From: Myxococcus stipitatus
Lineage (GTDB): Bacteria > Myxococcota > Myxococcia > Myxococcales > Myxococcaceae
Reading direction: 5' to 3'
Assembly (NCBI RefSeq): GCF_038561935.1
Contig: NZ_CP102770.1
Span: 5,332,001 to 5,396,000 of the forward strand
Length of the DNA stretch: 64,000 bases
Under the pieces are notes generated by a model. It saw only the letters and a list, made by a program, of their open reading frames with translations. It had not been told where the DNA came from and made no database searches. The translations under genes were made by a program, and so were the position numbers. Below, in pieces: positions 2,510-22,360 of this stretch. Within the stretch, counting starts at the first letter, position 1; each line of letters opens with the position of its first letter.

Positions 2510-2527
2510 CCCTCAGGGAGTCCCGTC

Positions 2528-3535
2528 GTGCGTTTCCTGCTGACCGGAGGCACCGGCTTCATCGGCCAGCGGCTCGCGAGCCGCATCATCGAGCGAGGCG
2601 ACTCGCTCACCGCGCTCGTCCGCCCCAGCTCGCGGCGAGAGGCCCTCGCGGCGCTCGGCGCGAAGTTCGCGGTGGGCGACCTCACGACGGGAGAAGGCCT
2701 CGCCGAGGCCGTGCGCGACGTCGACTGTGTCCTCCATCTGGCCGGAGTCACCAAGGCCCGGGAGCCCGCCGGCTACTTCGAGGGCAATGCGAACGGCACC
2801 CGCCGTGTCGCGGAGGCGATGGCCGCCCTCCCCCGCCCTCCCCGACTCGTCTACTGCTCGTCCCTGGCCGCCGCGGGCCCCTCCACGCCGGAGCGTCCGC
2901 GCCGCGAGGAGGACACCCCCGCGCCTGTCTCCACCTACGGCCGCAGCAAGCTGGGTGGAGAGGAGGCGGTGCGAGAGTTCGCGGACCGCGTGCCCTCCGT
3001 CATCGTCCGTCCGCCCATGGTCTACGGCCCGGGTGACGCGGAGTTCATCCCCTCCGTCATCCCCATGGCCCGAAGCGGCGTGGCGCTCAAGAGCGGCTTC
3101 GGCCCCAAGCGCTACTCCCTCATCCACGTGGATGACCTGAACACCACGCTGCTCGCCGCCGCCGAGCGGGGCCCCACACTGGACAAGTCCGACCCGGGGC
3201 GAGGCGTCTACACCGTGTCTGACGGGTACGAGTACACGTGGGAGGAGATCTGCGCCGCCGTGGCTCGCGCCATGGGCCGCAAGCCGCCCACCGTGCTGCC
3301 CATGCCCGACAGCTTGAGCTACCTCATCGGTCTCGGCTCCGAGGCCATCGCGCGACTCCGTGGCACCATCCCCATCCTCAATCGGGACAAGGTCCGCGAG
3401 ATGATGTGCCCTTCATGGACGTGCACCACCGAGCGCGCGTCTCGCGAGCTGGGCTTCGCGCCTACCATCCCCCTGGACCAGGGACTCCTCGAGACCCTCG
3501 CGTCGTATCAGCGGGCCGCGCTCGCCCTGTCCTGA
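2528..3535 (+). CDS. cerR: NAD(P)-dependent epimerase/dehydratase-family reductase, ceramide reductase candidate
   Basis: An extended short-chain dehydrogenase of 335 residues. The Rossmann motif GGTGFIG lies at residues 7-13, the catalytic YxxxK appears as YGRSK near residue 137, and the upstream serine is in VYCSSLAA. The family normally acts on nucleotide sugars or related ketones. In Caulobacter a member (CerR) reduces the keto group of the acylated 3-ketosphinganine, and this gene follows the same two partners. The start is GTG 2528, with GGGAG 11 bases upstream; it is 18 bases from the previous stop, so the three genes form an operon that ends at the hairpin at 3544-3578. Confidence 0.7.
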   Translation: MRFLLTGGTGFIGQRLASRIIERGDSLTALVRPSSRREALAALGAKFAVGDLTTGEGLAEAVRDVDCVLHLAGVTKAREPAGYFEGNANGTRRVAEAMAALPRPPRLVYCSSLAAAGPSTPERPRREEDTPAPVSTYGRSKLGGEEAVREFADRVPSVIVRPPMVYGPGDAEFIPSVIPMARSGVALKSGFGPKRYSLIHVDDLNTTLLAAAERGPTLDKSDPGRGVYTVSDGYEYTWEEICAAVARAMGRKPPTVLPMPDSLSYLIGLGSEAIARLRGTIPILNRDKVREMMCPSWTCTTERASRELGFAPTIPLDQGLLETLASYQRAALALS

Positions 3536-3543
3536 AATGACGA

Positions 3544-3578
3544 AGGCCGAGGCCCCTCCGGAGAGGGAACCTCGGCCT
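3544..3578. terminator. Convergent hairpin terminator between cerR and mlaC-like gene
   Basis: A 9-bp perfect stem AGGCCGAGG / CCTCGGCCT (3544-3552 with 3570-3578), with inner C/G-rich pairing, lies between two converging genes. There is no U tract on either side, so it is a hairpin-type stop for both transcripts by inference. Confidence 0.6.
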
Positions 3579-3617
3579 GGATGATCCAGCGCTTCATTCA
3601 GCGCGGAAGAAGCCCGC

Positions 3618-4238
3618 TCACTTCCCGGGGCCGGCGGAGCCACCCGTCGCGGAGGAGCCCTTGGCGGACTGCGCCGCGTTCTCCTTCTCGAGCTGCGCCC
3701 GCTTGGTCTTCAGCGTGGAGAGCAGCCCGTCGAAGCCCTTGGTGCTCAGCAGCTTCTGGAACTGGCCCTTGTAGGTGTCCACGAGCGACACCTCGTCCGT
3801 GACGACGTCGTAGATGCGCCAGTCCGCCTTCGCCGTCTGCTTGTACAGGCGGTAGTCGACGGGAATCTGGTCCTTCTTGAGGGTGAGCGTGGTGTTGACG
3901 GTGGCCTCGGTGCCCTCGATGGACTCCTTGCCGTACTTCACGTCCGCCTGCGCCTGGCCAATGGCCTTCTGGGCGTAGGACGCACGCAGGAGCCCCGTCA
4001 TCGTCTCGGAGAAGTCCTTGCGCTGGGCGGGCGTGAGGGAGGTCCACGTCTTGTCACCCAGGGCGCGCTTCGCCAGCTCCTGGAAGTCGACGAACTTCTC
4101 GACGACGGTGGCGAGGGACTCGACGGTGGCGCCGGGGGCGTTGGCTGCCCGCTGGACATCCGCGTTCCCGGACTTGACGACACTGAGGGGAGTGGGCGCC
4201 GCGGCAAGCAAGGTGGCGGCAAGCAGGGAAGCAATCAT
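3618..4238 (-). CDS. mlaC: MlaC/Ttg2D-family periplasmic phospholipid-binding protein
   Basis: A 206-residue exported protein matching the MlaC (Tol_Tol_Ttg2) family: signal peptide over residues 1-17, the VEKFVDFQELAKRALG segment, an NTTLTLKKDQIPVDYRLYK beta-sheet region and the DWRIYDVV...VSLVDTYKGQF motif. MlaC ferries phospholipids between the outer-membrane complex and the inner-membrane MlaFEDB transporter. A Ser/Gly/Ala-rich tail ends the protein. The start is ATG 4238. It lies 53 bases downstream of a TolC-like gene, not with the mlaE-mlaF-mlaD genes found about 21 kb away in this window, so it may serve that transporter in trans or work with the TolC-like protein. Confidence 0.85.
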   Translation of the reverse strand: MIASLLAATLLAAAPTPLSVVKSGNADVQRAANAPGATVESLATVVEKFVDFQELAKRALGDKTWTSLTPAQRKDFSETMTGLLRASYAQKAIGQAQADVKYGKESIEGTEATVNTTLTLKKDQIPVDYRLYKQTAKADWRIYDVVTDEVSLVDTYKGQFQKLLSTKGFDGLLSTLKTKRAQLEKENAAQSAKGSSATGGSAGPGK

Positions 4239-4291
4239 GAGATTCGACTCCGTGAAGGAGGACGGTACAGCGGACAGACGCGAGGGCCCGA

Positions 4292-6046
4292 TTATTCACC
4301 CGGGGCCGGAGGCGTTCCCGTCACACGCGCGAGAGCCGCCATTCCCAACCGGACGTCGAACCAGCTCTTCGCCCGGTCGCCTGTAACCTGCGCATAGGCG
4401 GTGAAAGCGTCCACCAAATCGCGCGTCTCCCCCGTCCCCAGGTCGAACGCGGCGAAGGCGGCCGTCACCCAGCGACGAGCGCTCTTCTCGGCATCGGTGA
4501 AGGCTCGGGCCTTGGCCCACGCGGCCACCAGCTCGCCGTGCACCTTCGTCACTTCCAGACGGATGCCGGCGCGGATCTGCTTCTCCTGGGCACGGAGCTT
4601 GTCGAGCTCCGCCCGCGCCTGGTCGAGCTGCGCGTCCTTGATGGGGATATCGAAGGTCCCCCGCATCACCAGGCCCAGGCCGGCGGTGCGGTCGTTGTAG
4701 GGATCAAACGCGAACGGATTCTTCTGCCGCGTCGCGCTGGTGGTGTAGCGGACGTCGTAGAAGCCCGCGAGTCCCAGGTCCGGGAAGTAGCTGCGCTCAC
4801 GGATGAACACTTCCGCCTCGCGCGCGATGATTCCGGCCGCGATGGCGGTGAGCTCTGGCCGGTAGTTCTCGGCCAGCGTCAGCGCACGCTCCAAGGAAGG
4901 TGGCTCGACCTCGGCCGTCGGCTCGAGATCCTCCTCGACGACCTCCACCTCGGCACCCGGCGAGGCGTTGGCCAGCACACCGATGGCCGTCAGCGCGAGC
5001 ATCCTCCCCTGCTGGGCCTCCGCCTTGCGCGCCTCCACCATCTGCCGGAAGAAGCGGACCTTGTACGTGTCCACCTGGGACACCTGCGGCGACTCTTCCT
5101 TCAGGAGCGCGGCGATCTTCTCGGCGGCGTCCTCCAGTCGCTTGGACACCTCGTCGATCTGCTGAAGACCCGAGCGCGCCAGCTGATAGCTGAAGTAGGC
5201 CTGCGCGGCCTGGAAGCCCGCCTCGTCCCGGGCCCGCTCTCGCAGCGCCGCGCCCAGGACGGGGCCCTGCGCTCCCGCCTTCTTCAGGGCCGTCAGCTTT
5301 CCAAAGGTGTAGAGCGGCAACACGGCGTTGCCGTTCGAGAACATCGTCACGCCGACCTTGCCGAAGTTGAAGTCCCCCTCGTAGGAGGCCTTCGTGGTGG
5401 GCGGCCCGCCCAGGGAGTTGTTCCGGGCTTCGGGCACAGGACCGCCCATGCCCACCGAGATCTCGAACTTGGGAAACCAGGCCCAGCGCGCCTGCTCATA
5501 GAGCGCCTCGAACTTGCGCAGCTCCGCGCTCGCCTCCTCCACTCGGGAGTCCGACGTGCGCGCCCGCTCCACGAGCTGCGCCAACGTCAAGGGAGACGCC
5601 TTCGCCGGAGCAGCCTCCGCGTCAGGCGTCTGGCGGACCTTGTCCCCGGCCTGCTGCGCCTCGCGCGCGGTCTCCCGCATCGGAGCGGGCGACACCGTCC
5701 GCCCCTCGATCTGAGGCGTCGGATTCTCCACCGTCTCGGGAGCAATCACCGGAGGCGATGGAGGAATGACCGTGCCAGCGCTGGGATTCGTGTTGGGCGA
5801 GGGCGTTTTCGGCGCCGTGGGGGTCGAGACCGTGGGGCTCGCGCCCGCACCCGTCGACGGGCCGCTGCTGGTTCCGCTGCCCGTTGTCCCCGTGGTGGAG
5901 GGAGCGCTCGGAGCCGGCGTGCTTCCCGTGGTTCCCGGCGTCGCGCCGCCACCCTGCCCCGTGGAGCCGGGTGTGAACTGCGCGGCGGACAGTCCGGCCG
6001 CGAGCACCAGCGCCACTGTCACGCCTCGATCCAGGTGTCTGCGCAT
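4292..6046 (-). CDS. TolC-family outer membrane efflux protein with long N-terminal linker
   Basis: A 584-residue protein with two outer-membrane-efflux repeats forming a TolC-like alpha/beta barrel, for example GFQAAQAYFSYQLARSGLQQ in the first and AELDKLRAQEKQIRAGI in the second. I chose ATG 6046 because it opens a clean signal peptide (MRRHLDRGVTVALVLAAGL...A-Q) and has GAGAGG upstream; the open frame extends further, but upstream codons look non-coding. Residues about 25-115 form a Gly/Ser/Thr/Pro-rich spacer uncommon in TolC proteins. It sits first in a probable two-gene operon with the MlaC-like gene. No RND pump or membrane-fusion gene is adjacent, so its partner pump is unknown. Confidence 0.8.
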   Translation of the reverse strand: MRRHLDRGVTVALVLAAGLSAAQFTPGSTGQGGGATPGTTGSTPAPSAPSTTGTTGSGTSSGPSTGAGASPTVSTPTAPKTPSPNTNPSAGTVIPPSPPVIAPETVENPTPQIEGRTVSPAPMRETAREAQQAGDKVRQTPDAEAAPAKASPLTLAQLVERARTSDSRVEEASAELRKFEALYEQARWAWFPKFEISVGMGGPVPEARNNSLGGPPTTKASYEGDFNFGKVGVTMFSNGNAVLPLYTFGKLTALKKAGAQGPVLGAALRERARDEAGFQAAQAYFSYQLARSGLQQIDEVSKRLEDAAEKIAALLKEESPQVSQVDTYKVRFFRQMVEARKAEAQQGRMLALTAIGVLANASPGAEVEVVEEDLEPTAEVEPPSLERALTLAENYRPELTAIAAGIIAREAEVFIRERSYFPDLGLAGFYDVRYTTSATRQKNPFAFDPYNDRTAGLGLVMRGTFDIPIKDAQLDQARAELDKLRAQEKQIRAGIRLEVTKVHGELVAAWAKARAFTDAEKSARRWVTAAFAAFDLGTGETRDLVDAFTAYAQVTGDRAKSWFDVRLGMAALARVTGTPPAPGE

Positions 6047-6283
6047 CACTCGGCCTCTCGCGAGCCCCCATACCCGAGAATCTCGCGCTGGCGCAGCATC
6101 TTCGTTCGACGACACACAGTCACCGCCCAACTTCATTGGCAACCCAGAGTCCGCCTTCGCCACGCCTGGCTCAGTCCCCGCACCGGCTCGGTGGGTTTCC
6201 TGTACGGAACACCGCAAACACCGCGACGTGTCCTCGAGCCCCACCGCCAGAATCATTCGGAGTCGAGCGAAGACACTGGAAAA

Positions 6284-6320
6284 CAAAAGGCCCGCCTGGT
6301 TTCCCAGGCGGGCCTTTCTA
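6284..6320 (-). terminator. Rho-independent terminator after tRNA-Ala
   Basis: A perfect 12-bp stem AGGCCCGCCTGG / CCAGGCGGGCCT (6288-6299 with 6304-6315) with a 4-base loop. Read on the minus strand it is followed by TTTGTTTTCC, a T-rich tract. It lies immediately downstream of the tRNA. Confidence 0.85.
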
Positions 6321-6328
6321 TTTCAGAG

Positions 6329-6401
<73 letters not shown>

Positions 6402-6455
6402 GATTTTTGCTGCTGGCCGCCTTGGGAAGCGGCCGCCGTCGGAAGTGGGTGCCTT

Positions 6456-6857
6456 CTACCGTTTCTTGTTCCCAGGTGCCAGAACTGTTTGAGGCTTCGG
6501 TGCATTTTTTCCAACCTTCAACCGCTCGGCGATCTCCTCCCCCTCCCGAAGGATGTCCGTGAGCTCACGGGCATGCGCTTCGGCCGCCTGCTCGGCCGCC
6601 TCGATGGACTTGAGCGCCGAAGCGAATCCAGCGGGGAGCTCCAGCTTCCCCTTCTGGACCTGCCGGTAGACCAGCTCGCCCAGCTCCTTCAGCGCGCGGT
6701 CCTTCTGGTCCTTGAGGACGGTGGCCTTGGCGTTCGCGCGAGCGAGGTCCGTGTTGCGCTCCACCGCCTCGCGGAGCTGCGTCAGTCGCGCCTGCGCGGA
6801 CTGGAAGGCCTCGTTGATCTGCTTCATCACTTCGGACTGCTTCGCGTCGGCCGCCAC
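6456..6857 (-). CDS. Small coiled-coil protein of unknown function
   Basis: A 133-residue soluble protein, mostly charged helix: QINEAFQSAQARLTQLREA and AIEAAEQAAEAHARELTD-like heptads indicate coiled coil, and the tail is Lys/Pro-rich and basic. No signal peptide or catalytic motif is visible. The chosen start is GTG 6857, because AAGGGG lies 9 bases before it; an upstream ATG in the same frame at 6917 would overlap the neighbouring rRNA methyltransferase gap without a ribosome site, and an internal ATG at 6827 is also possible. It lies between the tRNA-Ala gene and the RsmB-like gene on the same strand. I do not recognise a family. Confidence 0.7.
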   Translation of the reverse strand: MAADAKQSEVMKQINEAFQSAQARLTQLREAVERNTDLARANAKATVLKDQKDRALKELGELVYRQVQKGKLELPAGFASALKSIEAAEQAAEAHARELTDILREGEEIAERLKVGKNAPKPQTVLAPGNKKR

Positions 6858-6919
6858 GTGGGTATCACCCCTTGAAGAACCTACGCTGGCGTAGCGTGTG
6901 GCCTCGTGGACTGTCAACC

Positions 6920-8299
6920 CTACCGAGTCCGGCGAAGCCTCGCGGCGAAGAACCCGCCCCCCGGCACGCGCGGCGGCAGCGCCTTGAGGTACGGGCCTTG
7001 GACGGCCCGAGCGGACTGCTCCGCCCCCAGCACGTCCGAGACCGGCTCCAGCGTGAACTCCGGGTGCTTCGCCAGGAAGGCCTCGACGACCGCCTCATCC
7101 TCCTCGGGCAACACCGAGCAGGTGGCATAGACGACGAGTGCACCGTGCTTCACCTGGCGAGAGACCTCCTCCAGCAGCTCCGACTGGGTCGTCTGGAACT
7201 TGGAGATCTCCTGCGCGGTCAGCTTCCACTTCTGATCCGGCTCGCGAGCCAGTGAGCCCGTGCCGCTGCAAGGCGCATCAATCAGGAGGACATCCGCCTC
7301 TGACAGAGGCATCGGCTGGGGGAAGGCCACCTGCCGCAGGGAGAAGTGGCGCACCCGCTCACGGGCCTCGGCCAGCCGGCGCCGGGAGCGATCTCCCGCG
7401 AGCACCTTGCCGGACGGACCGACGAAGTCCGCCAGCGCCAGCGTCTTGCCGCCCGCGCCCGCGCAGACATCCGCCACGGTAAGCCCCGTCATCGCGCCCC
7501 CCACGGGACGGCACACCTCGGAGATGAGCTGACTGCCCACGTCCTGCACCTGGAGTCGCCCCGTCTTCATGACGCGCGTCTCGAAGACGCGGTGGCTGGC
7601 ATCCACCACCCGCACCGCGTCGGGCGCGGCGAGCACCGCCTCCGCGGCGACCCCTTCTTCGATCAGGGCGGCGAGCACCGCATCCCGCGTCCCAGGCGGA
7701 CGGACCCGGAAATGCAGTCCTGGATCCTCGTCCAAGGAGGACAGCAGTCCTTCGAGGACCTCTTCCGGATAGGCCTGCGCCAGCTTCTGCACGAGCCAGT
7801 TGGGGAACGAGTACCGGACCGCGAGCCGCTCCGCGTGCGAATCCGGAAGCGGCGGCTCCGACAGCGGCGACTCCACCACCGTCTGGAGGATATCGTCCTT
7901 GATGGTGCGCGGCCGGACAGGCCCCGGGAGCCGAACCTCCGGACCGATGCGCGCCCAGTTCTCTCCACAGAAGAGCCGGCGCCACAGCGCATAGCGCACC
8001 AGGGCCTGGTCCTCCGTCAGCCCCAGCTTCCCCGGGGGATGCCCCAAGGTCCGCGAGGCCAGGTCCAACAAGCGTTGGTGCCGCGACAGCTCACGCACCA
8101 CCAGGGCCGCGAACCGGCGCTCCTGTCCACCGAGCCCGTCCGCGTCACGAAGCGCATTGGCCAGCGCGGCCTTGAGCGGCTCGCCGCGCAGCACCGCGAT
8201 GTGTGCTTCCAGCGCCGCCGTCGCCGCGCGTCTCGAAGGACGCCCCAGGCGTGCCGCATCCAGCGGAGTTGTGGGCCAGACAGTGTCCACGGGTCCCAA
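6920..8299 (-). CDS. RsmB/NOP2-family rRNA cytosine-C5 methyltransferase
   Basis: A 459-residue SAM-dependent RNA m5C methyltransferase. The N-terminal third (about residues 1-140) resembles the NusB-like RNA-binding domain of RsmB, which acts on C967 of 16S rRNA. The Rossmann catalytic domain shows VADVCAGAGGKT for SAM binding, DAPCSGTG (motif IV) and YATCSVLPEEDE (motif VI); these supply the two catalytic cysteines. The start may be TTG 8299 or GTG 8290, both after AAGGGCAGG. It follows the receiver-cupin gene by nine bases, probably co-transcribed. It could target a different rRNA base from the E. coli enzyme. Confidence 0.85.
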   Translation of the reverse strand: MGPVDTVWPTTPLDAARLGRPSRRAATAALEAHIAVLRGEPLKAALANALRDADGLGGQERRFAALVVRELSRHQRLLDLASRTLGHPPGKLGLTEDQALVRYALWRRLFCGENWARIGPEVRLPGPVRPRTIKDDILQTVVESPLSEPPLPDSHAERLAVRYSFPNWLVQKLAQAYPEEVLEGLLSSLDEDPGLHFRVRPPGTRDAVLAALIEEGVAAEAVLAAPDAVRVVDASHRVFETRVMKTGRLQVQDVGSQLISEVCRPVGGAMTGLTVADVCAGAGGKTLALADFVGPSGKVLAGDRSRRRLAEARERVRHFSLRQVAFPQPMPLSEADVLLIDAPCSGTGSLAREPDQKWKLTAQEISKFQTTQSELLEEVSRQVKHGALVVYATCSVLPEEDEAVVEAFLAKHPEFTLEPVSDVLGAEQSARAVQGPYLKALPPRVPGGGFFAARLRRTR

Positions 8300-13768: not shown

Positions 13769-14686
13769 TCAGGCGTGGGGGCGCTCGAGCACCGCGTCAT
13801 AGGGCGGCGCCACGAACACCGCTCCCGCTTCCTTGCGAAACCAGGTGAGCTGGCGCTTGGCGTACCGCCGCGTCTCCTGGGCCGTGTCTCGAATGGCCTC
13901 GTCCACGGACATGCGCTCCTCGACCACCGCGCGCGCCTGCACGTAGCCCACGCTTCGCATCGGCGCCGCGTCCGCGTATCCCCGCGCGAGCAAGGCCCGC
14001 GTCTCCTCGACCAACCCCGATGCGAACATGGCCTCGGTGCGCGCGTTGATGCGGGCGTAGAGCACGTCGCGAGGGGGCTCCAGGACGAAGAGGCGGAAGG
14101 GATATCGGTCCACGGAGAAGGCATGGGCCTTGTGGAACTCCGAGGCGGGCACACCTGTCCGCGCATGAATCTCGAGCGCTCGGATCACCCGGACCAGGTC
14201 CTGGACGTGCAGCCGCGCGGCGGTCTCCGGGTCCACCTGCGCCAGTCTGCGATGCACGGCCTCTCGCCCTTGCTCCGCCGCGAGGGTCTCCAGCTCGGCG
14301 CGCAGCTCCGGCAAGGCGCCGGGTGCATCCACCACACCGTGCAGGAGGATGCGCAGGTACAGGCCCGTGCCCCCCACGACGATGACGGGCTGTCCCCGTC
14401 GGGTGATATCCGCGATGACCGAGTCCGCGCGGCGCTGGTACTCCGCCGCCGAGAAGGTCTCCAGCGGGTCCACCTCCGACACGAGGTGGTGCGGCACCGC
14501 CGCGAGCTCTTCCGAGGACGGCTTCGCGGTGGCGATGTCGAAGTGGCGGTACACCTGCTGCGAGTCCGCGCTGACGATTTCACCGCCCACGCGGCGCGCC
14601 AGCTCGATGGCCAGGGCCGTCTTCCCCGACGCCGTCGGCCCGGCCACCACCGTCAACGTCGGCCGTCCCTCCTGTCCTTCACCCAT
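13769..14686 (-). CDS. miaA: tRNA dimethylallyltransferase
   Basis: A 305-residue enzyme, usual length for MiaA, which transfers a dimethylallyl group to N6 of A37 in tRNAs reading UNN codons. Visible motifs are the P-loop GPTASGKT at residues 16-23, VSADSQQVYR with the catalytic Asp, the VVGGTGLYL segment and RSVGYVQA near the C-terminus. ATG 14686 lies inside the end of the HPr-kinase-like gene (8-base overlap) with GGGAG upstream, so miaA is likely the last gene of that operon. The open frame continues upstream of 14686, but those codons belong to the overlapping gene. Confidence 0.95.
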   Translation of the reverse strand: MGEGQEGRPTLTVVAGPTASGKTALAIELARRVGGEIVSADSQQVYRHFDIATAKPSSEELAAVPHHLVSEVDPLETFSAAEYQRRADSVIADITRRGQPVIVVGGTGLYLRILLHGVVDAPGALPELRAELETLAAEQGREAVHRRLAQVDPETAARLHVQDLVRVIRALEIHARTGVPASEFHKAHAFSVDRYPFRLFVLEPPRDVLYARINARTEAMFASGLVEETRALLARGYADAAPMRSVGYVQARAVVEERMSVDEAIRDTAQETRRYAKRQLTWFRKEAGAVFVAPPYDAVLERPHA

Positions 14687-15593
14687 GCGCCGCTGCTCCC
14701 AGGGCTGTTCGCACCACGGCCACTGCCGAGGCATCCCGAGCAAACACCAACCGCGCCGGCTCCACCTCCGACAACAACCGGCCCGCGGAGACGAGCATCG
14801 CCGAACGCCCCGCCCCCGAGGACTCGCACAGCAGGACGTTCTGCACCAGCACCCGTCCCACCTCCCCCGCCCCTTGTCGCTCCCATCGGGAGCTCGAGTC
14901 CCAGCCCAGGACACCCACCGCGCGCAGCCGCGCCTCGCGAGGGAACCCCACGTTCCACGGAGTGCCGGCCACTCGCCAAGGACGTGGTGAGGCCCCCCGC
15001 GGGTCCTCGGGCCACACCGCCACCAGCTCATCCGAGAGCAGGGGCTCGCCCGCGTCCGTCCACAGTCCGCCCAGGGTGCTCTTCCCCGCGCCTGAGTGCC
15101 CCGTGAACAGCGCCGCCTCTTCGCCGTGCATCAACGCCACGCCATGCACCAGCAAACCGCCCCGGCGACGAAGCTCCACGGCAAGCATCACCCGCAACAC
15201 CACTTCCACCGGGAACCGGCCGGAGCCCACCACCACACCCCGCAGGCCCTCCGCATCGAGTCGCGCGGAGTAGTCCTCGCCCTCCAGCACGAGCGCGCCA
15301 TCCTCCGCGCGCCAGGGACGAGGAATCTCTCGAGTCGCGGGCTCGGGGCGAACCTCCGAGGGAGCCACGACCTCCAGCACCGAGGCTCGCACACCCAGCG
15401 GAGGCCGCGGCGTGATGAAGCCCGCGAGCGACTGGCGAAGCAGTGCCTGGACGCGGACATCCGGCACCTGAATCCCCACGGTCCATCCCGCCATCGTGAG
15501 CCAGGGGCCCGTCGGCTCGGATGAATCCTCGTCGGGGCCACCCACACGCCGGGGACCGGACGCACCGGCACCCGACGGACTCAGGGCGTGCAC
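14679..15593 (-). CDS. HPr kinase/phosphorylase-like protein of a peptide operon
   Basis: A protein of about 304 residues with an HprK-type P-loop. The segment LLVHGVALMHGEEAAL leads into GHSGAGKST (about residues 165-173) and LLSDELVAVWPE, the core of the HPr kinase C-terminal fold. It lacks the N-terminal domain of true HprK and no PTS genes are present. HprK-like kinases occur as tailoring enzymes in some lasso-peptide clusters and in PqqD-containing operons of unknown role. GTG 15593 would overlap the stop of the 59-residue peptide gene by 13 bases; GTG 15545 and ATG 15494 are alternatives, none with a strong ribosome site. A peptide-directed kinase role is inference. Confidence 0.75.
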   Translation of the reverse strand: MHALSPSGAGASGPRRVGGPDEDSSEPTGPWLTMAGWTVGIQVPDVRVQALLRQSLAGFITPRPPLGVRASVLEVVAPSEVRPEPATREIPRPWRAEDGALVLEGEDYSARLDAEGLRGVVVGSGRFPVEVVLRVMLAVELRRRGGLLVHGVALMHGEEAALFTGHSGAGKSTLGGLWTDAGEPLLSDELVAVWPEDPRGASPRPWRVAGTPWNVGFPREARLRAVGVLGWDSSSRWERQGAGEVGRVLVQNVLLCESSGAGRSAMLVSAGRLLSEVEPARLVFARDASAVAVVRTALGAAAHG

Positions 15594-15760
15594 TCCGACT
15601 CGCCCGGGATGTTGCACTGCGACATCATCGCGAGCGCGACGAAGGGCTGCTCCCAGAGGATGGCCGGAGCCTCATAGCGAGGCGTCCCTTCCGGGTGTGC
15701 CTCTCGCGAGCCCTCCGTGGGTGACCGGGATGATGTCGGAGTCGAAGAAGTTCTGGTCAT
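15581..15760 (-). CDS. 59-residue peptide, candidate modified-peptide precursor
   Basis: A short gene visible only by reading the junction between two larger genes. Its ATG (15760-15758) overlaps the TGA of the surface-protein gene as ATGA, which argues for translational coupling. The product has a Ser/Thr/Pro/Glu-rich start (residues 1-27), then RYEAPAILWEQPFVALA (28-44) and a short end MMSQCNIPGESECTP with Cys49 and Cys57. Tyr29-Pro32-Ile34 fit the YxxPx(L/I) leader motif that PqqD-like recognition proteins bind in lasso-peptide systems, and a PqqD-like gene is in this operon. No signal peptide is seen. The sequence shows the gene and motif; precursor function is inference. Confidence 0.65.
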   Translation of the reverse strand: MTRTSSTPTSSRSPTEGSREAHPEGTPRYEAPAILWEQPFVALAMMSQCNIPGESECTP

Positions 15761-18700
15761 GGGAACGGTACCGGGAAGGAGCAGATGAAGCCGTCCTCGG
15801 AGCCCACGTGCAGCCGGGAGGAAGTGGTGTCGATGGTCGGGGTGCCGATGCGCGGGCCGCTGCTCAGCGACACCTGCGCCGAGTCCGCGCCGCCGACCAT
15901 CTCGAGTTGGTGCACCTTGCCGTCACCGCCACCGACGTAGATGCGGACCACGCCGTTGCGGTTGAGAGTGAAGGTGCCGGAGGGATTCGGGACGGGCGTC
16001 GACCACTGGCGCGTGGGCATCGCGGCTCCAGGCGCCGCGTAGTCCCAGAACTCCACATGGCCACTCGCGAGGCTTGCCACGAAGCCGCCGCCCAGCGGGC
16101 GGACGAAGCTGGTGAAGGCGGGCGTGCTCGGCGCGGGCCGGGTCGCCACGTTCAGGCTCCACACCACCTGGCGAGTGATCGCGTCGACGGCATGGACCAC
16201 GCCATCGCTGTTGGTCGCGAGGACATGTCCCGTCACACCGTTGCGAACCAGGCTGTGCTCCAGGTCCCCGAGCGCCAGTCGCGCCACCTCGGCGCCGGTG
16301 AGCGTATTCAGGACGCGGAGCGAGTCCGCTGACACGCCATTCACCTTCCCGCCGATGAACAGGAGGTTGTTCGCGTAGTCCACCACCATGCCGCCGTTGA
16401 CCATGCCCAGGTCCCCGGGCTGGTAGGTGAAGACCGGGGTCCCCGTCCTCGCGTTGAGCGCCACCACGCGGTTGGCCGCCGGGTTCGCCAGACGCGTCGC
16501 GAAGAAGACGAGGTCCAGGTTCGGACGCGCGGCCTGATACGCGGCATTCGCGTAGTCATGCAGCTGCGTAACGGGGAAGGACTGGATGGTGCCGACAGGC
16601 GTCCCGTTGTTGTTCCACCGCCACAGCACCGCCCCCGTGGTGGCGCTGATGGCATAGGCCACGCCGTCCTGGTCCGCGGTGAGGATGTACTGCCCGGACA
16701 AGCCCCGCAGCGGCACCACCGGGAAGCGGCTGCCAATGGGAGCCCCCAGCTGCAGAGGGCGCCACCGCTCCGCGCCATCGGTCGCGGGATTCGACACCTG
16801 GGTGAGGTTGGCGACGACGGTGTTGTTGAAGGAGCTGAAGATGCCCACGCCCAGCTCCGTGATGGGCTGGATGCGCGCATCCAGGCCCACGGAGTAGCAC
16901 CACAGCGGCGCGGACCCCACGCGTGCACGCGGTGTCGCCTTGAGCGCCGCGGACGTGGGCTGATTGCCCGCTGAGTAGAAGCCCGCGTCGTCCGAGTTGA
17001 ACACCCGGTAGTAGTACGTCGTGCCGTTGGTGACGGCGCTGTCGACGAAGGTGGACGTGCTGGTGAACGTCTCGGAGAGGACGACCGTCGCATTGCCCAG
17101 TGTCTCGCCCTGGGCATACGTCCGTCCGGCGACAGGCGCTGTGTTGGGTGCGCTGCCCGTGGCACGCAGGACCAGCACGCCGTTGTGTGAGGCGGGATTA
17201 TCCCACGCCAGCGTCACGCTCCCGTCCCGAGCCACCGCCGTGAGCCGCGCGACCTCCGGCGCCATGCCGCCCGCCGCGAGCGTCACGGGCGCCTCGATGC
17301 GCGCCGCGGATTGGGACTCGTACGCGTCCGGGATGTGCATCCGATGGCGGAACGTGGTCGGCGCCGTGACGGCCGAGACACTCGCGTAGGTCACCTCGAA
17401 GCTGCGCTCCTGGTTCACGCCGATGGGGTCCCCGTCTGCGACCGTCCAGGTGAAGCTCGCGGTGTTGCTGGTGACCGCCCATCCTCCCGCCGATGCGGGG
17501 CTCCCCGCGGCGAACCGGAAGTAGTTTGTCGCGGGCCGCAGCAGCGTGACCTGGTAGATGGGCTGACTCCCACGATTCTGGACCGTGTAGAGGACCGTCT
17601 GGTTCGCGACGCCCGGCACGAGCACGGACGGGCTCACCTTGAGGCGATGGGCCACGACGCGGCCCTGCCCCGTGCGCACGAGTGGCGTGGAGACGGCCGC
17701 GCCATTCAGCGTCGCGTCCGCCCTCACATCGAAGGCGTAGTTGGAGAACTCAGCGCCCGTCACCGTGTAGTGCCAGACGAAATGAGCGGATGCGCCCGGC
17801 GCCAGTCGCGGGGTGCTCGCGGGGGTGGGCCCTTGCGTCAACGTGGCCTGGGCCGAGCCCACCAGGACAGGCGCTCGCGGCACCACGTCGAGATACGACG
17901 CCGTGGCCGACGTGTTGGTGACGCTCAGCCGCACCCTCACGGACTCTCCCGTGAACGCCTGCGTCACATCCACATCCGCCGCGGCGGCCAGGGGGGCCAC
18001 GTTCACCATCGCCGTGTCGACCACGCTCGAGGTCACCGTGCCACCGGTGTTGGTGGCGCGAACGCTGGCGACCATGGTCCCTTCGGACTGCACCGTTGCT
18101 CTCGCCGCGAGGATGCCCGCGCCTCTCAACGGAATGCTGGCCCGGAAGTTCGTGGGCTCGAGCTCGACGACCTCGAACGTGACATCACCAGCGCCGGTGC
18201 TGGGCCCCTCCGCGGTGATGTTGGCCTGGGCAGACGACGGCCCCGTGCGGTTCTCGATGACCAGGCGCGCGGTGAAGTCCTCGCCTACCGGAAGGGCTCG
18301 CGGCTGGATGGAGACCTGCGTGGACAGCCCCACGCGCAGCCACTGCGCCACGGTGCTCGTCCGATTCGTTTGGAAGGTGCCATTCCAACTGCACTGCTCG
18401 TTCGCTTCGAGCCTCGAGAACACCTGCCCCGTGCCGTTCTGGTTCGACACCGAGGGAATCATCCGGAGCGTGAACGTCGCGGTCTCGTTCGTCCCCAGCC
18501 CCACGGCGGGCCCCGCGCAGTCGAGACTCGGGATGTAGTAGTACCGGACCTGCCACAGCGTCGTGTACTGCTCGACCGCCCAACCCGGGGGTGGCGGGCT
18601 CTCGAGCAGCGCGTAGCCAGTCGGGAGCTGGAACAGCACGTCGTTGATGGGTCTGTAGTTCGGCGAGGATCTCGTCGTGTTGTTGCGGACCTGGACCCGC

Positions 18701-18861
18701 AGCTCCGACGCCTCATCCATCGTCACCGTGGCCTGGGTCTCCCCTGGCCTCGTGAGGGTCGTGAAGACGGCGGTGCGGTTCATCGTCGTCTGGGCCATCA
18801 CCGCCGACGGCAGGGCCAGGGCGGCGAGGAGCACCGCGAGGCGGGCATTCACGGGTGTCAT
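15757..18861 (-). CDS. Large exported protein with Ig-like, fibronectin-like and beta-propeller regions
   Basis: About 1034 residues. ATG 18861 opens a signal peptide ending near SAVMA-Q; GTG 18876 in frame is an alternative start. Residues about 25-540 are Ser/Thr/Val-rich beta repeats resembling CARDB/DUF11-type Ig modules. A fibronectin type III-like module spans roughly 540-645 (SVTLAWDNPASHNGVLVLRA to GTTYYYRVFNSDD). The last 350 residues carry PQQ/WD-like propeller repeats such as GVAYAISATTGAVLWRW, RVVALNARTGTPVF and GVVHAVDAITRQVVWSL. There is no membrane anchor or sorting tail, so it is probably secreted or surface-bound. It is the largest product of the operon; its role is unknown. 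Confidence 0.75.
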   Translation of the reverse strand: MTPVNARLAVLLAALALPSAVMAQTTMNRTAVFTTLTRPGETQATVTMDEASELRVQVRNNTTRSSPNYRPINDVLFQLPTGYALLESPPPPGWAVEQYTTLWQVRYYYIPSLDCAGPAVGLGTNETATFTLRMIPSVSNQNGTGQVFSRLEANEQCSWNGTFQTNRTSTVAQWLRVGLSTQVSIQPRALPVGEDFTARLVIENRTGPSSAQANITAEGPSTGAGDVTFEVVELEPTNFRASIPLRGAGILAARATVQSEGTMVASVRATNTGGTVTSSVVDTAMVNVAPLAAAADVDVTQAFTGESVRVRLSVTNTSATASYLDVVPRAPVLVGSAQATLTQGPTPASTPRLAPGASAHFVWHYTVTGAEFSNYAFDVRADATLNGAAVSTPLVRTGQGRVVAHRLKVSPSVLVPGVANQTVLYTVQNRGSQPIYQVTLLRPATNYFRFAAGSPASAGGWAVTSNTASFTWTVADGDPIGVNQERSFEVTYASVSAVTAPTTFRHRMHIPDAYESQSAARIEAPVTLAAGGMAPEVARLTAVARDGSVTLAWDNPASHNGVLVLRATGSAPNTAPVAGRTYAQGETLGNATVVLSETFTSTSTFVDSAVTNGTTYYYRVFNSDDAGFYSAGNQPTSAALKATPRARVGSAPLWCYSVGLDARIQPITELGVGIFSSFNNTVVANLTQVSNPATDGAERWRPLQLGAPIGSRFPVVPLRGLSGQYILTADQDGVAYAISATTGAVLWRWNNNGTPVGTIQSFPVTQLHDYANAAYQAARPNLDLVFFATRLANPAANRVVALNARTGTPVFTYQPGDLGMVNGGMVVDYANNLLFIGGKVNGVSADSLRVLNTLTGAEVARLALGDLEHSLVRNGVTGHVLATNSDGVVHAVDAITRQVVWSLNVATRPAPSTPAFTSFVRPLGGGFVASLASGHVEFWDYAAPGAAMPTRQWSTPVPNPSGTFTLNRNGVVRIYVGGGDGKVHQLEMVGGADSAQVSLSSGPRIGTPTIDTTSSRLHVGSEDGFICSFPVPFP

Positions 18862-18877
18862 CGAAGCGGGCCTCACG

Positions 18878-19387
18878 TCACGGCTCCAGGGTGAAGGAGG
18901 CCGTGGTCAGCGGCGCCCCGTCGAGGAAGAAGCGCACGCTCCACGTCCCGCTCATGATGGACGTGGCGACCGTCGTCCCCGCCACGGGCATGGAGAAGCG
19001 CAGCGTCTTCGCCGCATCCAGCTTCGCCACCACGACCGAGGAACGCCGCTGGTAGGGGTGTCCCTCCGGGGACACGAACTCCGCCTCCACGGTGCGCTTG
19101 CCGGAGACGCCGCTGACCGTCAGGTCCACGTCCACCTGGGACACGTCCGACAGCCCCCGCGAGGCCAGGCCCACCACTTCGGCATGCCCCATGGGCCGCG
19201 GCACTTCGACCTCGACGTCCTCTTCCCAGGACGGCGGGCGGGCCACTTCGGTCCCCTCGCCCAGCACATCCGTCGGAGCCACGGGGACGACCTCGCCGGG
19301 GTCTTCGCTCCCCTTGGGCGGATGAGTGCCCTCCGTACACGCCGACAGCAGCAGCGCCGCCACGAAGCCCGCTCTGCGCGCTCGCAT
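18878..19387 (-). CDS. Predicted lipoprotein of the peptide operon
   Basis: A 169-residue lipoprotein: signal peptide MRARRAGFVAALLLSAC with lipobox LLSAC, then an acidic spacer and a C-terminal beta-sandwich-like domain (VDVDLTVSGVSGKRTVEAEF, GTWSVRFFLDG). ATG 19387 overlaps the PqqD-like stop as TGATG and is preceded by a perfect AGGAGG, seven bases away; GTG 19390 is also possible. Residue +2 after the lipid Cys is Thr, so no inner-membrane retention signal of the Asp type is apparent. It may anchor or assist the large exported protein encoded next. No known family recognised. Confidence 0.8.
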   Translation of the reverse strand: MRARRAGFVAALLLSACTEGTHPPKGSEDPGEVVPVAPTDVLGEGTEVARPPSWEEDVEVEVPRPMGHAEVVGLASRGLSDVSQVDVDLTVSGVSGKRTVEAEFVSPEGHPYQRRSSVVVAKLDAAKTLRFSMPVAGTTVATSIMSGTWSVRFFLDGAPLTTASFTLEP

Positions 19388-19683
19388 CACCGTACCTCCT
19401 GAAGCTCGTCGATGAGGCCCAGCCGGGCCAACTCCGAAAGAAATCGCAGCGTGTCCGTGAGCGCCTGAGCCACGTCGATGGAGAACTCGCTGGCGACGAC
19501 CTCCGCCACCGAGCGCGCCGAGCGCGTCCCGTCACTGAGCTCCCAGACCCGCATCGCCGTCGCGTTGAGGCCCCGCAGCGTGCGGCCCTCCGCGTCCAGC
19601 AAGAGGAAGTCCGCGCCGAAGCGCTGCCCCTCCGCGCCCGAGCGACGACGGGGAACACGCTCCGCGCCGAAGCCGCCGCTCAT
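19387..19683 (-). CDS. PqqD-like peptide-recognition protein
   Basis: A 98-residue winged-helix protein of the PqqD family. The core from RFGADFLLLDAEG through LNATAMRVWELSDGTRS to LRFLSELARLGLIDEL matches PqqD domains. These domains (RRE) bind leader peptides of ribosomally made peptides and present them to modifying enzymes. The first 20 residues are basic and variable. ATG 19683 overlaps the upstream stop as ATGA. The only small peptide gene in the operon is at 15581-15760, whose Tyr-Pro-Ile motif would suit such binding. No PQQ biosynthesis genes are present. Confidence 0.85.
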   Translation of the reverse strand: MSGGFGAERVPRRRSGAEGQRFGADFLLLDAEGRTLRGLNATAMRVWELSDGTRSARSVAEVVASEFSIDVAQALTDTLRFLSELARLGLIDELQEVR

Positions 19684-20087
19684 GGGCGCCCTCCCCGTCC
19701 CAACCACCGAGCCACCCGCCCCCGCACCCGTGCGCGGACACGGCCCAGCATGGAGGGCCCTCGGTCCCATTCCGCGCCCAGCTCCACGCTGCCCCGCCGG
19801 ACCCGCAGCACCGTCCCGAGGATGCGCGAAGCGGCAATCGGAGGATCCCCAGCGGGAGCATTGTCGCCCCGCAGGGACAGCACTCCCGAGCGCAGGCCCT
19901 GGACCCGGTGAAGCACCAGCGCGTCGTCGAACCGCGCCAGCACCACCTCTCCTGGCCGAGGCTCCCGCGTCAGCGGCGCCACTCCCGCCAGGTCCCCAGC
20001 CCGCAGCGACGGCCACATGCTGTCTCCCCGTACGGGAATCCAGCGCAAGGCCGAAGGCGACGCGGTGGGGAGGGACTCACTGGACAT
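19680..20087 (-). CDS. S24/S26-like serine peptidase without membrane anchor
   Basis: About 135 residues. The catalytic Ser lies in VRGDSMWPSLRAGD, and the second catalytic position in LVLHRVQG holds His where LexA-type peptidases have Lys, so the dyad resembles Ser-His signal peptidases. SLRGDNAP continues the fold. No transmembrane helix is visible, unlike normal signal peptidases, and there is no DNA-binding domain, unlike LexA. It could cleave the operon's peptide or an exported partner. ATG 20087 is preceded by GGGTGG; GTG 20111 is another in-frame start. It is first in the operon, overlapping the PqqD-like gene. Confidence 0.7.
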   Translation of the reverse strand: MSSESLPTASPSALRWIPVRGDSMWPSLRAGDLAGVAPLTREPRPGEVVLARFDDALVLHRVQGLRSGVLSLRGDNAPAGDPPIAASRILGTVLRVRRGSVELGAEWDRGPSMLGRVRARVRGRVARWLGRGGRP

Positions 20088-20225: not shown

Positions 20226-21521
20226 TCAGGTGGCCGCGGGGGGGGCCTGCGGAGCCCCCGACTGAGCCCGCACCGTGCGTGCGATATCGTCGAGCGCCAC
20301 GGGGATGGGCTCTCCCCCCGCCATCCGCTTGAGCTTCGCCTGGCCGCTGGTGAACTCCTGTCCCCCGAGCACCAGCGTGAAGGTCGCGCCGCTCTTGTCG
20401 GAGCGCTTCATCTGGCTCTTGAGGCTGCCGCCCCGGGTGTCGAAGTCCACGCGCAGCCCCTCGCGACGCAGACGGCTCGCCAGGGTGAAGGCCGCGTCAT
20501 GCGAGCCCGCGTCCGCCACCGCGATGAACAGGTCCGGGGTGGCGGCGAACTTCTGCTGGCTCTCCTTCAGCAGCAGCACCAGCCGGTCCACGCCGCACGC
20601 GAAGCCCACAGCGGGCACGTCGGGGCCGCCCAGGCTCTTTACCAGCTTGTCATAGCGGCCTCCGCCGCCCACCGTGCTGGCCGTCCCTAGCGCGGGGTGC
20701 GACGCGACGAACTCGAAGACGGTGCGCGTGTAGTAGTCCAGGCCGCGAACCATGCGCGGATTGACGACGAACCGGACGCCCAGCGCCGTCAGCTTGCGCT
20801 GCACGTCGTCGAAGTGGGTGCGGCACGGCTCGCACAAGAACTCGAGCACGCTGGGGCCCTTGGCGGCCACCGCCTGGCACGTCTCGTTCTTGCAATCGAG
20901 CACGCGCAGCGGGTTCGTCTCGAGGCGCCGGTGACAGTCGCCGCACAGCTCCTCGCGGTGCGCCTTGAGGTACTCCACCAGCTTCTCGTAGTAGGCGGGC
21001 CGGCAGGCCTCGTCCCCCAGCGAGTTGAGGTTGAGCGTGATGTCCTGGAGCCCCAGCGCCTGGAGGAACTGGGTCACCATGTCCATCACCTCGACGTCCT
21101 GGGCGGCCTCCTTCGCGCCGTAGGCCTCCGCGCCGATTTGATAGAACTGCCGGTAGCGGCCCGTCTTCATCCGCTCGTACCGGAACATCGGCCCCATGTA
21201 GTACCAGCGCGTGAGCGGCTCCTGGTTCAGCACGGAGTGCTCGATGTACGCGCGCGCCGCGGGGGCGGTGCCCTCGGGACGCAGGGACAGGCTGCGGCCG
21301 GCCTTGTCGTCGAAGGTGTACATCTCCTTGCCGACGATGTCCGTCTCCTCGCCCACGCTGCGCACGAAGAGCGACGTGTCCTCCACGATGGGCGTGCGGA
21401 TCTCGCTGTAGCCGAAGCGGCCGAACAGCTCTCGCGTCAGGCGCTCGACGTGCTGCCAGATTTCAATCTCCCCTGGCAGGAGGTCGTTCATGCCCTTGAC
21501 GGCGACAATCTTCTGGCTCAC
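20226..21521 (-). CDS. hisS: Histidyl-tRNA synthetase
   Basis: A 431-residue class II synthetase that charges tRNA-His. Motif 2 appears as FRYERMKTGRYRQFYQ, the histidine-binding motif as RGLDYYTRTVFE, and motif 3 as GFACGVDRLVLLL. The C-terminal anticodon-binding domain covers the last 90 residues. A Cys cluster (CGDCHRR...CKNETC...CEPC) in the insertion domain suggests a zinc site. The start is GTG 21521, overlapping the psd stop as GTGA, so translation is coupled to psd. The frame stays open further upstream, but those codons are within psd. Confidence 0.95.
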   Translation of the reverse strand: MSQKIVAVKGMNDLLPGEIEIWQHVERLTRELFGRFGYSEIRTPIVEDTSLFVRSVGEETDIVGKEMYTFDDKAGRSLSLRPEGTAPAARAYIEHSVLNQEPLTRWYYMGPMFRYERMKTGRYRQFYQIGAEAYGAKEAAQDVEVMDMVTQFLQALGLQDITLNLNSLGDEACRPAYYEKLVEYLKAHREELCGDCHRRLETNPLRVLDCKNETCQAVAAKGPSVLEFLCEPCRTHFDDVQRKLTALGVRFVVNPRMVRGLDYYTRTVFEFVASHPALGTASTVGGGGRYDKLVKSLGGPDVPAVGFACGVDRLVLLLKESQQKFAATPDLFIAVADAGSHDAAFTLASRLRREGLRVDFDTRGGSLKSQMKRSDKSGATFTLVLGGQEFTSGQAKLKRMAGGEPIPVALDDIARTVRAQSGAPQAPPAAT

Positions 21522-22360
21522 GGCAACACTCCGATGCGCTGCCCCAGTCGGAGCGGCGCCTCCGGCTGCAGGCTCGACTCCCACTTCACGCGGCCGGCCT
21601 CGAACAGGAGGATGACGGTGGAGCCCATCTCGAAGCGGCCCAGCTCGCCCCCCTTCTCCACCTTGTAGCCCTCTTGATACCGGTGGACCTTGCCCGGCTG
21701 GCCCGTGTGCGTGGTGATGTCGTCGTAGGACGCCTTGATGCGCGACACACACGTGGCGCCCACCTTCACCACCGCGCACTGTCCCGCCGCCGTCTGGAGG
21801 TACGTCACCAGCCGCTCATTCACGCAGAACAGCGACTGCTTGTTCATCACCGACGCGGGGTTCACCGGCCAGAACTCGCCAGGGATGTACGCGTAGCCGG
21901 TGATGGTGCCCGCCAGCGGCGCGTGGATGCGGTGATAGTCGCGCGGAGACAGGTAGATGGTCGTCCAGGCGCCACCGTGGAACGGCTTCGCCGCCTGCGA
22001 GTCGCCCAGCAGCTCATCCACCGTGTACTCGATGCCCTTCGCCTGGAGGCACCGGCCGTGCTCCGAGTAGCCCACCTGGGACACGCGGCCATCCACCGGC
22101 GACACGACGGCCTTCTCGTCCGGGTCGATGGGACGCAGGCCCGGCTTCAGGCTCCGGGTGAAGAACTGCGCGAAGGTCGGGTAGTGCTCGATGGGGTGCT
22201 CGGCCTCCGCCATGTCCACGTTGTAGGACCGGGCGAACGCGCGCATGGCCGCCTGATGAACAGGCGCGGGCACGGGCACTCGCGTGGCCATCCCCACGAC
22301 GGAGGACAGGGCGGACTTGGGCAACAACCGCATCAACTTCATGAAGGTCTGGTCGTTCAT
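21518..22360 (-). CDS. psd: Phosphatidylserine decarboxylase
   Basis: A 280-residue type I enzyme that makes phosphatidylethanolamine from phosphatidylserine at the inner membrane. The self-cleavage site that generates the pyruvoyl group is MGST (usually LGST) in GRFEMGSTVILLF. Other family signatures are VSPVDGRV with the catalytic Asp, YHRIHAP with the catalytic His, and FTRSLKPGLRP. ATG 22360 (MNDQTFMKLM) is preferred over further upstream starts that fall in the preceding lipoprotein gene. It lies 13 bases after that gene and overlaps hisS downstream. Confidence 0.93.
   Translation of the reverse strand: MNDQTFMKLMRLLPKSALSSVVGMATRVPVPAPVHQAAMRAFARSYNVDMAEAEHPIEHYPTFAQFFTRSLKPGLRPIDPDEKAVVSPVDGRVSQVGYSEHGRCLQAKGIEYTVDELLGDSQAAKPFHGGAWTTIYLSPRDYHRIHAPLAGTITGYAYIPGEFWPVNPASVMNKQSLFCVNERLVTYLQTAAGQCAVVKVGATCVSRIKASYDDITTHTGQPGKVHRYQEGYKVEKGGELGRFEMGSTVILLFEAGRVKWESSLQPEAPLRLGQRIGVLP

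Follow-up and report, generated by a model that had tools for sequence, protein, structure and literature searches.

What does an operon achieve that combines a PqqD-like recognition protein, an HprK-like kinase, a 59-residue peptide and a large secreted protein? This question is raised by a 64,000-nucleotide (nt) stretch of Myxococcus stipitatus DNA, hereafter the window, which covers positions 5332001-5396000 of a 10.17-Mb genome. The list of open reading frames (ORFs) and their translations show six minus-strand ORFs at 14679-20087, then miaA. In gene order, the six encode an S24/S26-like peptidase, the PqqD-like protein, a lipoprotein, a secreted Ig-like/beta-propeller protein, the peptide and the HprK-like kinase. 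On balance, we favor the view that the operon is a peptide-maturation module of the ribosomally synthesized and post-translationally modified peptide (RiPP) type, dedicated to a cell-surface protein. Our argument starts from what was observed directly, which is gene content, gene order, conservation, selection, predicted folds and the position of a Ser/Thr residue.

The initial annotation would have been refuted by a lack of the peptide in syntenic operons of related strains. This was not seen in the genus, where a protein search found the peptide in 26/26 other genomes, and four genomes from further genera of the same family (G029, G031, G033 and G036) have it too. A peptide profile matched 59/195 genomes of the phylum at an E value of 0.05, the last few matches being weak, and a contig scan recovered 22 loci, all in Myxococcus, Pyxidicoccus, Corallococcus, Citreicoccus, Archangium or Myxococcaceae records. 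The peptide matched no Pfam or NCBIfam family. Four candidate matches were dropped: one, in G043, sits inside a 718-amino-acid (aa) frame, and three weak ones (L090, L091 and L092) had no PqqD, HprK or radical S-adenosylmethionine (radical SAM) gene in the fetched DNA. Selection was estimated from 27 genus sequences picked without a motif filter. Over the 16 codons from Tyr29 to Ala44, synonymous polymorphism (pS) was 0.347 and nonsynonymous polymorphism (pN) 0.004, giving a pN/pS of 0.012. Over the last 15 codons pN/pS was 0.38, with 11 variants of these residues among the 27 genomes, a constraint that may partly stem from HprK because the C-terminal codons of the peptide overlap the HprK ORF. 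Among 15 aligned relatives, Y29, P32, W36-E37-Q38, F40, L43, A44, P52 and G53 were invariant; one genus sequence (L028) has Ala in place of E37. The motif YxxPx[ILV] was present in 23/23 collected superfamily peptides, most of which had been found via this motif. On this evidence the peptide gene is genuine, and purifying selection on its YxxPxI region is extreme. A leader-like conserved motif followed by a more variable end is the usual shape of a RiPP precursor.

The surrounding cassette is conserved as well. All seven genes, including miaA, were in order in 14/14 genus loci inspected. In L032, from another genus (genome G033), the six genes stay together with miaA 6.4 kb away, in L084 and L093 miaA is 2-3 kb apart, and in L086 it lies on the other strand. 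The initial annotation placed miaA at the operon end; in view of these loci, miaA is a separable neighbor. Relatives of the lipoprotein occur in the same operon in L032, L033, L035, L084, L086, L088, L089 and L093-L097. Two of these loci come from other families. L089 has the order NTP - S24 - PqqD - peptide - propeller relative - lipoprotein - HprK - radical SAM, and L088 has a large secreted-looking protein without a Pfam match, then lipoprotein, NTP (other strand), peptide, HprK, radical SAM and PqqD; the extra genes encode radical SAM/SPASM and NTP_transf_5-like proteins. None of the window's six genes encodes a radical SAM maturase, and radical SAM is absent from the cassette and giant loci (see below) examined in the window's own family. 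The earlier remark that no radical SAM enzyme is seen is therefore true of the window operon and does not extend to the operon of relatives from other families. We dropped a radical SAM partner acting in trans, the best relative of the L088 enzyme in the window's own genome being 30% identical over 121 aa; other types are possible. For the cyclised product once suggested, we found no support here.

A phylum search with PF05402 matched 146/195 genomes, and our first set comprised 40 PqqD loci that were strong scorers among the matches listed, not a random draw. The gene beside PqqD encoded a giant protein in 13/40 of these loci, 1,600-2,400 aa long where complete. All four giants tested had FG-GAP repeats near the C-terminus, three had Ig-like domains over cut-off, and a lipobox-like Cys was present in 5/5 N-termini read. 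The giant of L104 ends at a contig edge and was excluded from downstream counts. The other 12 loci had downstream DNA in view: a YxxP peptide directly followed the giant in 11 and HprK lay downstream in all 12, while nine of them had radical SAM and ten S24/S26. In 9/9 loci measured, the 140-336 nt that separate giant and kinase domain held a 41-96-codon ORF with YxxPx[ILV] (the kinase start of L122 was set by the analyst). Giant loci span eight families of the phylum (f1, f7, f8, f9, f10, f11, f21 and f24). A Fisher test of giant against HprK in the first set (12/21 vs 1/19, p-value = 0.0006) leans towards association, because downstream DNA was extended mainly where a giant had been seen.

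We then used a hold-out set of 40 further HprK-like loci, drawn from a search that matched 139/195 genomes, with criteria fixed before fetching; many of these genomes are related to each other. HprK counts are meaningless in this set, because the loci were chosen by HprK. A giant was found upstream in 20/40. Of these 20 loci, 19 had the peptide after the giant (13 with the strict motif, 6 with a relaxed one) and 19 had PqqD before it, the other locus (L195) running off the fetched DNA. S24/S26 was present in 18 and radical SAM in one (L178). Taken together, Myxococcota repeatedly show PqqD, a giant Ig-like/FG-GAP-propeller lipoprotein, a YxxP peptide and HprK in this order. The link between PqqD, HprK and the peptide proposed in the initial annotation is real and general, and the large secreted protein belongs to the conserved unit.

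A candidate modification site comes from the bsf lasso peptide cluster. According to the report on this cluster (PMC10368454), its precursor BsfA has a leader motif beginning at Tyr(-17) and is phosphorylated at Ser3 by the HprK-like BsfK, a reaction that the PqqD-like BsfB1 speeds up; Ser3 is 19 residues past the leader Tyr. In the window peptide, Ser47 is at offset 18 from Tyr29, is present in 27/27 genus sequences and is near-invariant in the relatives' alignment A1. In a first collection of 21 peptides, 17 had Ser/Thr at offset 18 or 19, which 0/3000 shuffles reached in any window; with six relatives of the window peptide removed, the count was 11/15 (P = 0.017). Giant-linked peptides had Ser/Thr at offset 18-19 in 9/11 cases in the first set and 17/19 in the hold-out, 26/30 together, where the offset window was picked after the first peptides had been seen and six of the 19 hold-out peptides came from the relaxed motif only. 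Clustering the giant-linked peptides at 50% identity left 14/18, with a shuffle P of 0.0002 for the best of offsets 8-27.

The PqqD-like protein scored 48.3 bits against PF05402 (cut-off 23.4) and is the sole match to this family in the genome at an E value of 0.001; neither a second PqqD at that threshold nor a second HprK at an E value of 0.1 was found in the genome. Its best solved relative by sequence is TbiB1 (5v1u/5v1v, E = 0.00046), a RiPP recognition element (RRE) from a lasso peptide system, and PqqD structures are also among the best sequence hits. A report on RRE groups, PqqD included, describes W/Y/LxxP-type recognition sequences (PMC12710340). For the HprK-like protein, the AlphaFold2 (AF2) model had a predicted local distance difference test score (pLDDT) of 89, and the top Foldseek matches were phosphoenolpyruvate carboxykinase (PEPCK) and HPr kinase. 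H117, G137, K138, T140 and P179 were invariant across 15 diverse members, the G, K and T of the Walker A motif included. By this model, the protein has the HPr-kinase/PEPCK fold with Walker A, and it would be a peptide kinase by analogy to BsfK. A plasmid search returned no plasmid-borne relatives of the L122 kinase.

The S24/S26 peptidase keeps Ser23 (GDSMWP) and His60 (LHRV). In a 23-row alignment the His (HRV/HLV) was present in 23/23 and the nucleophile was Ser in 20/23 and Cys in 3/23, the latter a replacement of the catalytic Ser in three giant-type loci (L122, L150 and L151). The nearest NCBIfam models, nickel superoxide dismutase (NiSOD) maturation protease and archaeal signal peptidase, were both under cut-off, and no membrane segment was seen by eye. 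We propose that this protein is best read as a leader peptidase. The propeller protein has a signal-like N-terminus, an Ig-like stack and a C-terminal beta-propeller, and its Cys660 and Cys1032 were invariant in a 20-row alignment. Its AF2 model (pLDDT 74, predicted template modeling score 0.54, weak stretches at 630-778) matched PrgB Ig domains and BamB/YxaL propellers in Foldseek.

A PqqD-fold RRE protein and a short precursor with a conserved leader motif and a more variable core, two features of RRE-dependent RiPP pathways, are both present. We infer the following series of events for the presumably co-transcribed genes. The PqqD-like RRE would bind the YxxPxI leader motif of the 59-aa precursor, and the HprK-like kinase would phosphorylate a Ser/Thr near the core start, Ser47 in this peptide, whose spacing from the leader Tyr is about constant. 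The S24/S26 Ser-His peptidase would then cut the leader near the 'FVALA' junction, freeing a peptide of 12-15 residues with two cysteines. This peptide would exit the cytoplasm and work with the co-encoded Ig-like/beta-propeller protein, which it would contact as ligand, cofactor or cargo. A second modification may be added by a radical SAM enzyme in several other families. A more specific proposal, which we put forward tentatively, is that a ribosomal phosphopeptide (in several families also radical SAM-modified) is made for installation in, or binding by, the dedicated Ig-like/beta-propeller surface protein. Under phosphopeptide installation, the propeller type would have changed (BamB/PQQ_2 in the window, FG-GAP in giants) with the peptide machinery staying, and the peptide would be a prosthetic or recognition group of the surface protein.

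Several observations weigh against a dedicated maturation module. The cassette encodes no exporter, and the overlap with HprK noted above bears on how the constraint of the peptide core is read. Among relatives, lipoprotein, propeller and peptide of L034 are accompanied by a PqqD on the opposite strand and by no HprK, L035 has no S24 match, L085 has S24-PqqD-peptide only, and L087 has PqqD-peptide-HprK with no surface protein within the 10.7 kb examined. Among giant loci, the giant and HprK of L135 are about 2 kb apart with two unrelated-looking ORFs between them and no peptide found; L183 has giant, HprK and S24 with no recognizable peptide; and in L192 and L195 HprK lies 3-3.6 kb beyond the giant. 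As to the phospho-acceptor, loci without a giant had Ser/Thr at offset 18-19 in just 3/8. At offset 7, Ser/Thr is conserved even more strictly among giant-linked peptides and could be part of the leader motif or a second site; the window peptide has Trp there. Finally, Ala changes in the BsfA leader at Tyr(-17) and Leu(-12), or at Tyr/Pro/Leu together, left phosphorylation by BsfK unaffected in the published experiments (PMC10368454), so that the YxxP motif may not steer the kinase.

The strongest alternative is an ordinary secreted RiPP, a signal or antimicrobial, with the propeller as its receptor, immunity or export factor. The RiPP-like precursor with its conserved leader and more variable core speaks for it, as does the presence of RRE, kinase and peptidase, and a single genome can contain two systems, as G033 does with cassette L032 and giant locus L162. 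Against it, the core is nearly fixed in the genus, which is unexpected for a diversifying bacteriocin, the cassette lacks a transporter, and the surface protein is as constant in its position as the enzymes are. We give this alternative a minor share, roughly one case in several. Less likely again, the peptide itself would not be the product: it would be an in-trans guide that docks kinase and RRE to a different substrate, which might be the surface protein prior to its export. The usual neighbor is indeed a gene for a surface protein, there is no exporter for a free peptide, and Ser/Thr is missing at the expected offset in some peptides; the statistics of Ser/Thr position within the peptide and the usual presence of a leader-type peptidase gene (10/12 and 18/20 giant loci in the first and hold-out sets) argue against such a guide.

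Two further explanations are improbable. The first is a degenerate lasso peptide cluster, from which cyclase and B2 peptidase would have disappeared. It would account for the lasso RRE as nearest solved relative of the PqqD-like protein and for the HprK-like kinases and YxxPxL leaders in phosphorylated lasso clusters, as given in the bsf report. The genome, however, has no PF13471 (Transglut_core3) match over cut-off (best 24.9 vs 26 bits, partial, 3.5 Mb away), the cluster has no asparagine-synthase-like cyclase (the nearest of five genome matches is at 5729928, about 378 kb away), and the cassette is conserved across genera, not decaying. The second, equally implausible, makes the short ORF a translated coupling element between propeller and kinase, with HprK and PqqD serving another substrate; the ORF does overlap both neighboring ORFs, but pN/pS is 0.012 over its motif codons, and its motif is found again in the gap from giant to HprK and, in L089, between PqqD and propeller. 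A module dedicated to a surface protein remains the reading we favor.

The coordinates are collected in the table below. The initial annotation had described six genes joined by overlapping start and stop codons, and both coordinates and overlaps agree with that description: ATGA at 19680-19683 (S24/PqqD), TGATG at 19387 (PqqD/lipoprotein) and ATGA at 15757-15760 (propeller/peptide). Lipoprotein and propeller are separated by 1 nt, and the HprK ORF and miaA overlap by 8 nt. The HprK-like ORF has candidate in-frame GTG starts at 15617 and 15593, both within the peptide gene, and its conserved domain begins at about 15494. The flanking ORF at 20226-21779, recognized by eye, is presumably hisS.

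Table. Positions of the operon's genes and of the peptide's proposed functional sites in the window.
Feature	Position	Strand	Details
S24/S26-like peptidase	19680-20087	minus	135 aa, Pfam Peptidase_S24 E 8.9e-11
PqqD-like RRE protein	19387-19683	minus	98 aa, PF05402 E 1.3e-12
Lipoprotein	18878-19387	minus	169 aa, LLSAC lipobox by eye
Secreted Ig-like/beta-propeller protein	15757-18876	minus	1039 aa, PQQ_2/BamB-type E 2.5e-8
Precursor-like peptide	15581-15760	minus	59 aa
YEAPAI, YxxPx[ILV] RRE-type leader motif (Tyr29, Pro32)	15659-15676	minus	
Ser47, proposed phospho-acceptor, 18 residues past Tyr29	15620-15622	minus	
HprK-like kinase	14679-15617	minus	HprK_rel_A weak, 23.8 bits
miaA	13769-14686	minus	operon end

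Other arrangements were seen in the same searches. In eight hold-out loci the peptide occurred without a giant; PqqD, radical SAM and S24 are present in most of them, and the cores include ALMSICKGG...GGGS. In this class (L174, L175, L184, L187, L188 and L194, also L199 and L201), the cores resemble ALM[GS]ICK with Gly/Cys-rich ends and the peptide is directly upstream of HprK; radical SAM was in view in 7/8 and S24 followed HprK in 6/8. The other 12 hold-out loci had neither a giant nor a strict-motif peptide, with radical SAM in some (L190, L191 and L197). L196 has a 1,885-codon frame (1790-7444) between PqqD and HprK-S24 without a match to the giants, perhaps another type of surface protein. 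In L186, a protein kinase-tetratricopeptide repeat (TPR) gene (6097-8274) lies upstream of a further HprK-like protein with no PqqD in view, and a large ORF occupies a comparable position in L182, L189, L193, L198 and L200. Secreted-looking Peptidase_C25 (gingipain-type) proteins of about 1000 aa (L129:10444-13395 and L123:10717-13791) lie beside PqqD - radical SAM - YxxP peptide - HprK - S24, the one in L129 followed by a lipoprotein-like protein; C25 proteins are perhaps another kind of surface partner. The radical SAM match is split over two frames in L149 (7965-8750) and L151 (7911-8702), a possible frameshift or decay. In L109, L111, L119, L120, L121 and L124, PqqD is directly coupled to radical SAM and the fetched DNA shows no HprK, which probably marks another RiPP type. 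In a same-genus genome (G024), two PqqD genes stand side by side next to a frame containing the motif YVPPAL (L118:7589-8369), a second system.

How does this operon compare with known systems? Among the papers listed in open-access literature searches, none concerned a PqqD-HprK-surface-propeller operon, which does not prove absence. S26B signal peptidases are of the Sec11/SipW type. They and the NiSOD maturation protease share S-M, H-R-V and G-D boxes with the window peptidase, which differs in being small, without a membrane segment by eye, below equivalog cut-offs and with Cys for Ser in three relatives. The biosynthesis of pyrroloquinoline quinone (PQQ) and mycofactocin likewise uses an RRE and, as in the relatives here, a radical SAM/SPASM enzyme, and the window has a PQQ_2-type propeller; none of the other PQQ genes is among the six cassette genes, and the four giants tested have FG-GAP propellers. 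HPr-rel-A, SynChlorMet and GeoRSP of NCBIfam also combine PqqD-like, HprK-like and/or radical SAM proteins. Scores fell under the curated cut-offs for ScmC (12/125 bits), ScmD (15.4/100), geo_PqqD (20.2/100) and the HPr-rel-A system (TIGR04352/TIGR04353; HprK_rel_A 23.8/200, PqqD_rel_X 19.2/35). The phosphorylated lasso clusters (bsf of Bradymonas sediminis and relatives) are closer: they likewise have a PqqD-like RRE, an HprK-like peptide kinase, a YxxPxL leader and phospho-Ser at core position 3. In contrast to these, the window operon lacks the B2 transglutaminase-type peptidase, cyclase C and ATP-binding cassette exporter, and has an S24/S26 peptidase and a surface propeller protein. We do not class it as a lasso peptide or HPr-rel-A system, because the tested features of both were lacking.

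Taken together, we class the system as RRE-dependent peptide maturation with enzymes of known kinds, HprK-like phosphorylation of RRE-assisted precursors being known from lasso peptides. The novelty seems to lie in a version that lacks a cyclase, has an S24/S26 peptidase and is usually partnered by a large secreted propeller protein; it is kept phylum-wide though the propeller type differs. An orphan PqqD-HprK pair thereby becomes a defined system in cultured myxobacteria that comprises a substrate and a surface partner as well as candidates for the modification site and the leader peptidase. If our view is correct, RiPP-type chemistry would equip a surface protein rather than make a free natural product. 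An FG-GAP repeat protein is encoded at the border of the bsf cluster; the authors of that study considered it presumably not involved (PMC10368454). By analogy with the giants, this neighbor in Bradymonas sediminis may belong to the system, and it would then merit a second look.

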